Both the position numbers and the translations under genes were made by a program. From Deltaproteobacteria bacterium (lineage in GTDB: Bacteria; Desulfobacterota_D; UBA1144; Nemesobacterales; UBA2774): DNA of 64,000 bases. Of the stretch, positions 2,470-6,946 are shown piece by piece (within the stretch, counting starts at the first letter, position 1; each line of letters opens with the position of its first letter). The notes beneath the pieces are model-generated. The model searched no databases. It was not told the DNA's origin and saw only the letters and a list, made by a program, of their open reading frames with translations. The stretch is from positions 1 to 64,000 of the forward strand of contig JAJCZS010000014.1 in the NCBI GenBank assembly GCA_029262275.1, in the 5' to 3' direction.

Positions 2470-3312
2470 TTACTGAGGACCTGCATAACCTGAGATCCGA
2501 GATAGCTCTTGGAGTGACTTAGCACCCTCATAGAATCTGCCGTTAATCTCCCAGGTAGGGTAATGTGAAACTCCTCGTGAAAAGCACAATGTGGCTCTTG
2601 AATTTTCTCCTGAAGGATCACACTCAACATAGTCTATATAAGTTGATGCTCCTCCAAACAAAGCTTTCTGGGAATTGCAGTGTGGGCATTTATAAGAACC
2701 ATACATTACGGCTCCACGATCTTTTAAGTACATTGCTAGACCAAGCTGTAAACTGTTAGCGCTTCCAGTGCTGACAGCCTGAGTTTCTATACTGTCTGAC
2801 TGAAAAGCGCTAGAGCCTATGACAACCACTCCGAGCACACAAATCGTTAGCACCGCAGTATGCAATGATGATAGCTTGGGATAGAATTCGGATTTCCTAT
2901 ACGCAATAATTACAAATATAGCAGTCATTATAATGGCTGATACAACGCAATAAGGACAAATCGCTTTTATTACAAAGAGCTCTATATAAGTTAGATAGAG
3001 AGAGAAAACAAAACCAGCTAGAGAAATTGTGTATAAAAGAAGCCATCCCGTACGCTTGGAAATAGAAACGAACGAAAACCAGAAAATGAGCGCATATCCA
3101 ACTGCTCCAAGAAGTGCTACAGGAATTCCCAACATGGAGGAGTAGCCACTTTGCCTGACAACATCACAATCAGAGCCTTGGGAGCAAAATGCAGTTTGGC
3201 CCTCAGCGTAATGTAGGTAGGTTAGATAAACAGATAGAAGAAACCCAATTACAGAGAGTATCAGCACAGCTGGCTTCATATACTTACTTTTAGTTTTGTC
3301 TGTAGAACTCAT
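2470..3312 (-). CDS. VKOR-thioredoxin fusion, disulfide-forming membrane protein
   Basis: About 280 residues. Residues 1-170 are a four- to five-helix vitamin K epoxide reductase domain, with the loop cysteines Cys43 and Cys49 and the quinone-side CxxC at Cys119-Cys122 (CPYC). A thioredoxin-like domain follows outside the membrane, with its own CxxC at Cys209-Cys212 (CPHC) and a cis-Pro region in SHYPTW. Bacterial VKOR fusions do the job of DsbB plus DsbA: they oxidise exported proteins and pass electrons to quinone. I take the ATG at 3312 as start; a TTG at 3330 is possible and neither has a clear Shine-Dalgarno. No dsbA or dsbB lies nearby, so this may be the main oxidation route. Confidence 0.88.
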   Translation of the reverse strand: MSSTDKTKSKYMKPAVLILSVIGFLLSVYLTYLHYAEGQTAFCSQGSDCDVVRQSGYSSMLGIPVALLGAVGYALIFWFSFVSISKRTGWLLLYTISLAGFVFSLYLTYIELFVIKAICPYCVVSAIIMTAIFVIIAYRKSEFYPKLSSLHTAVLTICVLGVVVIGSSAFQSDSIETQAVSTGSANSLQLGLAMYLKDRGAVMYGSYKCPHCNSQKALFGGASTYIDYVECDPSGENSRATLCFSRGVSHYPTWEINGRFYEGAKSLQELSRISGYAGPQ

Positions 3313-3395
3313 AATGTTTAGGAAATTCAATTTACACGATTATAGCCACTCGGTAAATAAGAATATTGTGTCTTTAGGAATATGCAATAGAATAA

Positions 3396-5540
3396 TTAAT
3401 CATCATAAAATTTATTTCCGGAAACTGAGATATCTTTAAGAAGAACTGGTGATATATACCGAGTGCCATATTTCACACTTAGATTATGGAGTTTCTTTAA
3501 GATCTCTCCCGCTCCTTCAGAATCAACGTAATTAAAAGGACCACCCACAACCGCTGGGAAACCAAGGCCCAATAAAGCTGCGATATCTCCTTCCTCGGGA
3601 CTGTTAATGACTCCCTCTTCAAGGCAAAGAAGTGCCTCATTAACCATAGCCAACATAAGACGTTCTTGTATTTCTTTGCTACTTAGACCCTCAGCTCTCT
3701 CAGAGTGAACGGGGAAGAACTTATATACAGATTTATCAAACCTTCCCTGTCCCCTATGGTATTTGTAAAAACCTTGCCCACTCTTAACACCCAATTTCTC
3801 ATTGCTAACTAACAATCCTAGAGAAGGATGGGGTTTTATTTTATCACCCTGCACCTGATATATTATATTTGATGCTTTTAGTACTATATCTATACCCATT
3901 TCATCCATAGTCTTAAAAGGCCCTTCTTCAAATCCTAGGCGGATCATCGCTTCTTCTACTGACTCCAGAGATACACCCTCGCCTACCAGATTGAGGCTTT
4001 CGTTAAAATAGGCTAACTCCAATCTAGTTGTATAGGATCCGGTACCGCCTTTTACAACAATAGGGGTCTTCCCGAGTCTCTTAGAAAACTCAAGCACCTT
4101 CGAGAGAGCATCTATAGAAGTCTCCTCTATTACCGATATTTCTATAAGCTCAGAATTATCCCTATGGTTAAAGGTCCTGACACCCAAAATCCTGTCAGGA
4201 CGAATTGAGCTTGCGGCAAGGCCTGCGATTGGAAAAACTAAGGAGCTTGAGAGGTAGATAGAATCCTCTAGTATCAGTGGCTCAATCTCTTTTAAGGAAT
4301 CGAGTTTTGTCTTAAGTTCCTCTTCAACACATTCAAAAACAATCTGAGCCCTTTTAAATCCTGAGTAATCAAGTGTAGCGCTTATTAGATCAAACTTATG
4401 CTCAAATTCTATCTCACTTATTTCCTGATTCTCATATTTTTCCTTAAAATGATCATAGCAAGATTTAAGTCCCGCACTTGCTTCATTATCGTCACTACAT
4501 TTGAGCCTCACTCTAATGTCAGCTCCGGCCGCCAAAGAAGCTATCTCGTTACCTAAATCATTAACTCCAACGACTGCTATCTTTTGAATATGATTAGATG
4601 TTGCAGAAGACCCCGGCCCTTCTTTAACCATCTCTAAGGCCATTTGGGTTCTGATTAAACTTCGTGTGGCTGTGCTAACTACGAGCTCCCCAAAATAAAC
4701 GGACTCAACATGTAGGCCCCTGTTAAAACTCGACATACCAACTTCAAGTGCCTCAATTGCCATTATAGGGGCATTAGCCGAAGGTTGGCTATCTTTTTTT
4801 ACCAGTTTTCTCATATCGTTAAATAGCCTTTTTCGTGCAATAGGGTTCTCATTTACTATCGTGTGCTGTATACCCTTAAAGTAATTTCTCTGAGGCTTAA
4901 ATTCTTTATTGGAAATTTGTAAAGCGCGCTCTAAGGAAAGGTCTAACAATAGTTCCTCAGGAACTACTTCATCTATTAATCCTAGACTTTTTGCATCATC
5001 TGAATCAATTGTATCTCCTGAGACTATGAGATTAAGAGCTTCCCTGGTGCCTATTAGTCTTGGCAGCCTTTGAGTACCGCCAGCGCATGGTATTAATCCA
5101 GACACAATCCCGTTCATTCCAAAATAAGATTGTGAGTTTTGAGAGGCTATTCTATATTCGCAGGCAAGAGCAAGCTCAAGTCCCATACCAAGACACGCAC
5201 CCCCTATCGCTGCAATAAATGGTGCTCTTGAACTCTCAATTTTCTCAGTCACTTCTTGTGCTTTTAAGCTATAAGTCCTACCCTCGTCTGCCAATGTAAA
5301 ATTTAGATACTCTCTTCTATCTCCGCCATCTAAAAAGCTACTATTGCTATCGCTATATAGAACAACCGCTCTTATTTCATCCTTGTTTTCAATCATATCG
5401 AGCTGTCCGTCAATATTGCTCAAGAACTCATTCATCCAGGCAATATCTTCTAGAGATAATTTATTTGCCGAGCCCTCGGGATTATTAAACCTAAGGATCG
5501 CAATACCATTTTTATCTAATTCATAAGATATGCTGTTCAT
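3396..5540 (-). CDS. fadJ: FadJ/FadB-like enoyl-CoA hydratase/3-hydroxyacyl-CoA dehydrogenase with altered active sites
   Basis: A 714-residue protein, the exact length of E. coli FadJ, with a crotonase domain (1-200), an NAD-binding domain (about 318-500) and C-terminal 3-hydroxyacyl-CoA dehydrogenase repeats. It follows a fadI-like thiolase, as in fadIJ. Family features remain: the oxyanion region GGACLGMGLEL with Glu122 and the AGGTQRLPR stretch. But aligned by eye to FadB and rat hydratase, the second hydratase glutamate is Gly144. The dehydrogenase GxGxxG reads GVNDLG, the catalytic His of HFFNP is Arg455 (Glu467 kept), and the Asn of PGFxxNR is Thr505. Either activity may be lost or changed. 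The start ATG at 5540 lies 19 bases after the thiolase stop; the Shine-Dalgarno is weak. Confidence 0.85.
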   Translation of the reverse strand: MNSISYELDKNGIAILRFNNPEGSANKLSLEDIAWMNEFLSNIDGQLDMIENKDEIRAVVLYSDSNSSFLDGGDRREYLNFTLADEGRTYSLKAQEVTEKIESSRAPFIAAIGGACLGMGLELALACEYRIASQNSQSYFGMNGIVSGLIPCAGGTQRLPRLIGTREALNLIVSGDTIDSDDAKSLGLIDEVVPEELLLDLSLERALQISNKEFKPQRNYFKGIQHTIVNENPIARKRLFNDMRKLVKKDSQPSANAPIMAIEALEVGMSSFNRGLHVESVYFGELVVSTATRSLIRTQMALEMVKEGPGSSATSNHIQKIAVVGVNDLGNEIASLAAGADIRVRLKCSDDNEASAGLKSCYDHFKEKYENQEISEIEFEHKFDLISATLDYSGFKRAQIVFECVEEELKTKLDSLKEIEPLILEDSIYLSSSLVFPIAGLAASSIRPDRILGVRTFNHRDNSELIEISVIEETSIDALSKVLEFSKRLGKTPIVVKGGTGSYTTRLELAYFNESLNLVGEGVSLESVEEAMIRLGFEEGPFKTMDEMGIDIVLKASNIIYQVQGDKIKPHPSLGLLVSNEKLGVKSGQGFYKYHRGQGRFDKSVYKFFPVHSERAEGLSSKEIQERLMLAMVNEALLCLEEGVINSPEEGDIAALLGLGFPAVVGGPFNYVDSEGAGEILKKLHNLSVKYGTRYISPVLLKDISVSGNKFYDD

Positions 5541-5559: not shown

Positions 5560-6858
5560 CTACTCCCTTTCTAAAACTATTGAAGCTCCAAGCCCTCCTG
5601 CAGCGCAAATTGTAGCCAGACCAAAATTGGCTTGTCTTCTTTGTAGTGCATTTAAAAGTGTCAGGATTATTCTTCCCCCAGTTGCTCCGAAAGGATGGCC
5701 TATTGCAATGGAGCCCCCTGTCACATTTACTTTATCCATATCTATTTCTCCAACCGCTTTGGGCCGGGAGAGTTTTTCTTCAGCAAATTTTCTAGAGGCA
5801 AGTGCCCTAATGTTCGATAACACTTGAGCTGAGAAAGCTTCATGTATTTCTACAAGATCCATATCCTTGAGTGAAAGACCCGCTTTGTCTAAAGCAGCAG
5901 GTGTCGAATATGCAGGGCCCATAAGAAGCTGTTCTTTGGGATTAACGGCAGAGTATGCATATGAGCGCACATAACCAAGTGGTTTGTAGCCAAGGGTTTT
6001 AGCCCTCTCTTCAGACATAAGAAGAATCGCACACGCTCCATCTGAGAGTGGGGCTGAATTGCCTGAGGTTACAGTTCCATATTCTTTATCAAAAGCAGGC
6101 TTTAGTTGCGAGAGCTCATCTATATTTAATTCAATCTTTATGCTGTTATCAGTGGATATTGGATCATCAAAATCGGGTGGAACGAAAGTTTTTAAGATCT
6201 CCCTTCTAAATATTTCTTCCTTTTGTGCCTTTGATGCAAGAGTGTGACTTCTGAGAGCAAATTCATCTTGATCTCTTCTGGATATTTGGTTCTGACGAGC
6301 GATCACCTCAGCAGATTCACCCATTGTGAGCCCCGTGCTGCGCTCGGCTATTGCAGGAATGTCTGGTGCAATATCCCCTACCCCCATTTTTAAAAATGGT
6401 TTGGCTTTTTGAAGAAGATTTTTTCCCCTTGAAGAATCAAATAGCATATTCTTGAAGTTCTTTGAGAAAAGAACAGGAAAATCAGAAATTGACTCAACCC
6501 CACCAACTATTACGACCTCAGAATCTGCTGATAATATACTCTGGACCCCGTTGGTAAAAGCCTGGGTAGCTGAAGCACATGCGCTTGTAACCGTAAAAGC
6601 AGGAACAGATGCAGGAACACCTGCACCAAGAGATATTTCTCTTGCCAGGTTAGAGGTTTTAATAGAAGGAAGAACTGTTCCCAATATTACTTTATCTATA
6701 TCCTGGGGATCGATCTCAGTACGGTTTAGGAGCTCAACAGTTACGATTTTGCCTAAATCTAGTGATGAAAGTTCTTTAAATAGCGTTCCGGATTTTATAA
6801 AGGGTGTTCTCAGACCATAAACAATAGCGACTCTATTTTGGCTGTTATAATGACTCAC
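5560..6858 (-). CDS. fadI: Acetyl-CoA acyltransferase (FadI-like thiolase)
   Basis: A thiolase that cleaves 3-ketoacyl-CoA to acetyl-CoA and a shortened acyl-CoA in beta-oxidation. The sequence follows E. coli FadI closely along its length. The acyl-accepting Cys94 sits in SACASA, His388 in GHPFGATG and Cys418 in CAAGGLG, so all catalytic residues are present. HEAF is also present. I chose the GTG at 6858 because GGGAG lies six bases ahead; a TTG at 6885 would give nine more residues but has no ribosome site. It heads a two-gene unit with the fadJ-like gene. Because the partner looks degenerate, thiolysis or acetyl-CoA condensation may be the working step here. Confidence 0.9.
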   Translation of the reverse strand: MSHYNSQNRVAIVYGLRTPFIKSGTLFKELSSLDLGKIVTVELLNRTEIDPQDIDKVILGTVLPSIKTSNLAREISLGAGVPASVPAFTVTSACASATQAFTNGVQSILSADSEVVIVGGVESISDFPVLFSKNFKNMLFDSSRGKNLLQKAKPFLKMGVGDIAPDIPAIAERSTGLTMGESAEVIARQNQISRRDQDEFALRSHTLASKAQKEEIFRREILKTFVPPDFDDPISTDNSIKIELNIDELSQLKPAFDKEYGTVTSGNSAPLSDGACAILLMSEERAKTLGYKPLGYVRSYAYSAVNPKEQLLMGPAYSTPAALDKAGLSLKDMDLVEIHEAFSAQVLSNIRALASRKFAEEKLSRPKAVGEIDMDKVNVTGGSIAIGHPFGATGGRIILTLLNALQRRQANFGLATICAAGGLGASIVLERE

Positions 6859-6946
6859 CAATTGCTCCCGTGTAGTTATTGGCAAAAAATCTTATCCATG
6901 ACTTTAAATCTGAGTACCAAGGAAAAACACAACGCTCTCTATATCA

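Follow-up and report, generated by a model that had tools for sequence, protein, structure and literature searches.

In the window, the 64,000-nucleotide stretch of a Dadabacteria genome analyzed here, a 714-aa ORF (3396-5540; all window coordinates given are on the minus strand) encodes a full-length FadJ-type α subunit of the bacterial trifunctional enzyme from which conserved catalytic residues are missing, while the protein remains full-length and under selection, the hallmarks of a pseudoenzyme. Reasoning from sequence, we infer, at about an even chance, that this FadJ is a pseudoenzyme α subunit, inactive and complexed with FadI, which it would most simply serve as a scaffold in the window's genus. 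It is very probable that FadJ in the window's family has a job other than the textbook chemistry; the residues give good inferential support for both sites having lost their chemistry, the case being stronger for the dehydrogenase than for the hydratase; and a scaffold or another new role is plausible. No report of such a degraded FadJ turned up in a literature search of open-licence papers.

The sequence-only reading had described a protein of FadJ length placed after fadI, and this holds: fadI, which encodes the thiolase β subunit (441 aa; 5560-6885), lies 19 bp upstream. Pfam finds ECH_1, 3HCDH_N, and 3HCDH, in this order, in the fadJ product, the architecture of a FadJ/α subunit of about 700-730 aa, and its top NCBIfam model is FadJ, just as that of its neighbor is FadI. 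The fadJ product falls short of the NCBIfam equivalog cut-offs for FadJ (PRK11154, 542 bits vs 869; TIGR02440, 482 vs 968); FadI passes PRK08963 (563.6 vs 560 bits) and misses the stricter TIGR02446 cut-off. Among solved structures, the leading homologs found by phmmer are E. coli FadJ (8bnr/8bnu) and human HADHA, and orthologs are present in 14 other genomes of the window's family. A viral-contig scan gave no finding, and a promoter and terminator scan returned signal at or below chance.

Active-site residues of FadJ

The comparison set outside Dadabacteria comprises 47 proteins. Two of them are E. coli FadB and FadJ; the other 45 come from other phyla (40 genomes) and were drawn from a homolog search that covered 387 genomes around the window. 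The set contains matches at E ≤ 1e-60 only, and degraded FadJ of other phyla could fall outside it. Sites were placed by phmmer alignment to the E. coli FadJ structures and by MAFFT alignments, with no gaps nearby; these alignments put the residues named by the sequence-only reading where it had put them. All 47 outside proteins have Glu122, Gly119, Pro143, Glu144, the three Gly of GxGxxG, Asn432, His455, and Glu467, and 46 of them carry Asp or Glu at position 348.

Of the two Glu and the oxyanion-hole Gly of a hydratase, only Glu122 (5175-5177), which the earlier reading had listed as remaining, is left; it is kept in 14/14 proteins of the window's family (f1). The second Glu is Gly144 (codon GGG; 5109-5111), again as claimed, and is missing from 12 of 14 f1 proteins (8 Gln, 4 Gly, 2 Glu). 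Two orthologs from the window's genus (g1) retain Glu144, which counts against the pseudoenzyme reading, and position 144 alternates between Gly and Glu within one genus (codons GGG/GGT and GAG), as expected if the site is no longer held. In rat MFE1 the equivalent residue, Glu123, is needed for hydration, and the E123A variant binds enoyl-CoA without turnover (PMC10988713). The oxyanion-hole Gly119 is replaced by Met (5184-5186), and by Met, Leu, Val, or Ile throughout f1; the neighboring Pro143 is Asn.

In the dehydrogenase, GxGxxG, the glycine motif of the NAD-binding fold, reads GVNDLG (residues 325-330; 4551-4568), with Asn327 in place of the middle Gly, which is gone from 15/15 f1 proteins. 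Where the second strand ends, Cys348 (4497-4499) replaces the acid that meets the NAD ribose; this position is Asp in 6/6 proteins of the sister family (f4) and neither Asp nor Glu in the 12 complete f1 proteins. Arg455 (4176-4178) replaces the catalytic His, which is lost in 14/14 covered f1 proteins (12 Arg, 1 Lys, 1 Asn), and HFFxP reads RTFNH. Asn432 is Ser. What remains of the His-Glu dyad, GxGxxG, and ribose acid is the dyad Glu467 (4140-4142; 14/14 in f1), which the sequence-only reading had also listed as retained. By the established enzymology of the 3-hydroxyacyl-CoA dehydrogenase fold, a site that lacks the His, the ribose acid, and the glycine motif all at once could hardly support NAD-dependent oxidation.

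Since Glu144, Gly327, and His455 are each found in 47/47 proteins outside Dadabacteria, the states of these three positions in the window are not chance. The claim that key residues are lost in both sites thus stands for 144, GxGxxG, and 455, and the substitutions at 119, 143, 348, and 432, together with the change of the wider HFFxP motif to RTFNH, extend it beyond what the earlier reading had seen. It fails for Thr505 (4026-4028), taken there for the loss of the Asn of PGFxxNR: position 505 is Thr in 5/6 f4 proteins, both fully canonical ones included, and Thr or Ser in 10/47 outside proteins. Thr505 as a loss is rejected; it is an ordinary variant, shared with human HADHA (GFYTTR).

HADHA, the mitochondrial trifunctional α subunit, also has the same domain order as the window FadJ but keeps the motifs of both active sites (HYFSP and PEV in the alignment). 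E. coli FadJ, of the anaerobic trifunctional enzyme FadIJ, shares length, domain order, fadI-fadJ order, and FadJ-type placement in the tree; unlike E. coli FadJ, the window protein is without the catalytic His, GxGxxG, NAD-ribose acid, second hydratase Glu, and oxyanion Gly.

Distribution and selection in Dadabacteria

A fadJ gene is found at E ≤ 1e-60 in 21 of 58 genomes of the candidate phylum Dadabacteria, 15/16 in f1 (the window counted) and 6/7 in f4; the single f1 genome without it is 77% complete. In the tree, all Dadabacteria FadJ are grouped (100) on the E. coli FadJ side (branch support 98), some neighboring forks being weak, and f1 forms one clade (SH-aLRT 100) nested among f4 proteins. 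The f4 genome G022 carries, at L081:7225-7514 (G022:C455), a frameshifted remnant of the C-terminal part of fadJ, the only clear case of decay seen in the phylum.

How far each protein has departed from the canon can be read from 57 near-invariant sites, at least 93% of which are kept by outside proteins in leave-one-out controls. Among f4 proteins, those of G030 and G032 keep 57/57, G026 51, G034 49, G028 43, and G018 41; f1 proteins keep 41-46. One small phylum holds a graded FadJ series, from canonical proteins (57/57) through intermediates to those degraded in both sites, mostly at a conserved locus, which makes the role of a trifunctional α subunit without chemistry directly testable. For these Dadabacteria genomes, FadJ annotation and pathway models would overstate function.

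The losses are not spread evenly along the protein. In f1 they fall in 10 of the 57 near-invariant columns, 9 of these at ligand-site positions: the loss rate is 9/22 in ligand-site columns vs 1/35 in the others (Fisher p = 0.0004, with a ligand-site list assigned from knowledge of the folds after the alignment was seen). The last FadJ domain keeps 8/8 of its invariants. Within the genus, conservation is lowest in the NAD domain. In complete f1 orthologs the frame stays open over about 715 aa, and f1 pairs with unsaturated dS give fadJ dN/dS values of 0.097, 0.088, 0.097, and 0.144, which are close to those of fadI in the same pairs and do not exceed that of the canonical G030/G032 fadJ pair (0.17); individual domains reach 0.24 at most.

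FadI, neighboring genes, and back-up enzymes

At every examined locus that spans both genes, the order is fadI-fadJ, and in most cases a TerB-like gene lies upstream of the pair and a VKOR gene downstream. Because canonical f4 loci share this arrangement, synteny tells us that the pair is old, not what its new role would be. In the window, the conserved downstream neighbor is a VKOR-family protein (Pfam VKOR; 2470-3330), which adjoins fadJ in most Dadabacteria fadIJ loci. A VKOR-family gene just 3′ of fadJ, seen in nearly all of them, has no evident tie to fatty-acid chemistry; it was dropped as a functional clue because it also lies 3′ of canonical fadJ in f4 and is thus uninformative on the new state. 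Further along, 1628-2275 encodes a 215-aa protein that carries a twin-arginine-like leader and matches no Pfam family; a relative occupies the same place in some genomes only.

The state of the thiolase differs among genera. The window FadI has all four catalytic residues, and the set of Cys, His (HEAF), His (GHP), and Cys (CxG) is complete in 6/6 aligned g1 loci. In the sister genera g2-g5, the CxG Cys is replaced by Ala, Pro, or Ser (L052-L058), and in G018 the HEAF His is also lost, the motif reading IQETF (L059); fadI of g2 has a dN/dS of 0.08-0.09. Since the CxG Cys is lost in g2-g5, scaffolding a thiolase cannot account for the retention of FadJ across the whole family, and the same loss leaves room for a wider change in the role of the whole complex.

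Could the cell oxidize fatty acids with such a FadJ? The window genome encodes an intact stand-alone 3-hydroxyacyl-CoA dehydrogenase (GAGTMG, HFFNP), an intact stand-alone crotonase with both Glu (GGGCE, PEV), a second intact thiolase, and acyl-CoA dehydrogenases; with these enzymes, β-oxidation would have no need of the window FadJ. In families that lack fadIJ (f6 and others, e.g., G042:C5), a stand-alone dehydrogenase gene adjoins a stand-alone crotonase gene, with thiolase and acyl-CoA dehydrogenase genes near.

Possible roles of a putatively noncatalytic α subunit

If FadJ no longer does its chemistry, why is it kept? The current model suggests that, in the lineage from which one Dadabacteria family descends, a FadJ-type α subunit turned into a pseudoenzyme. 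Its dehydrogenase site, with the general-base His, the glycine motif, and the NAD-ribose acid gone, would be unable to run normal NAD chemistry; its hydratase site is without the second Glu and has a bulky side chain at the oxyanion hole; and the stand-alone crotonase would supply hydration and the stand-alone 3-hydroxyacyl-CoA dehydrogenase would supply dehydrogenation. FadJ would then be retained for a noncatalytic part, most simply to hold the FadI thiolase in an α2β2 assembly of the trifunctional type; it may also bind or guide acyl-CoA, as acyl-CoA binding could persist, or set the complex at the membrane. Trifunctional enzymes have a β2 thiolase dimer as their core, and those of the FadIJ type associate with the membrane (PMC11301753). 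A dead relative that is under selection and could act via an active partner has a likeness in the trypanosome AdoMetDC prozyme (PMC5201418). The prozyme is a paralog of its active partner (PMC5201418), whereas FadJ has a fold unrelated to that of FadI, and activation of a partner would be hypothetical here.

The scaffold reading has to contend with the near invariance of Glu122, Glu403, and Glu467, which makes residual or changed chemistry possible. The crotonase domain might use Glu122 alone, in an isomerase- or hydrolase-like manner, or the Rossmann domain might take another nucleotide: members of the crotonase superfamily are known to work with a single acid, Glu122 and Glu467 are each kept throughout f1, and in several members the ribose acid has become Gly, Ser, Ala, or Cys beside an Arg or Lys, as in NADP-type folds. 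We consider such a changed activity unlikely, because bulky residues at the oxyanion Gly and the Glu/Gly alternation at 144 are unlike a newly selected site and the sequences show, close to the two pockets, neither a conserved His nor a conserved acid peculiar to f1. Somewhat less doubtful is a shift of the whole FadI-FadJ complex to a role outside β-oxidation (e.g., acyl-CoA sensing, lipid handling, or membrane organization), with g1 as an intermediate in which only α is noncatalytic. The losses in FadI of g2-g5 and of G018, the low dN/dS of g2 fadI, and the retention of fadJ in every f1 genome except the 77% complete one all fit this proposal; FadI of g1, by contrast, is fully canonical, the C-H-H set that remains in g2-g5 could still support acyl transfer, and no f1-specific partner gene points to a new role. 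We tentatively entertain, as possible though short of probable, a stepwise conversion of the trifunctional complex into a selected non-β-oxidation assembly, α first (g1) and then β (the CxG-less sister genera).

A pseudoenzyme with a retained role also has to be told apart from a gene that is simply dying. Intact paralogs make fadJ dispensable for β-oxidation, G022 is left with just the remnant, and it is the NAD domain that varies most within the genus; neutral decay of an unneeded fadJ is nevertheless very improbable and is rejected given the open frames, a dN/dS of about 0.1 overall, the structural invariants that are kept, and the conserved synteny, which strongly support the sequence-only reading in its argument against decay. 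That an active FadJ merely looks dead through misalignment or assembly error is hardly credible: the genomes are metagenome assemblies, but the local alignments are ungapped by two methods, and the same residue states recur in independent assemblies of 15 genomes.
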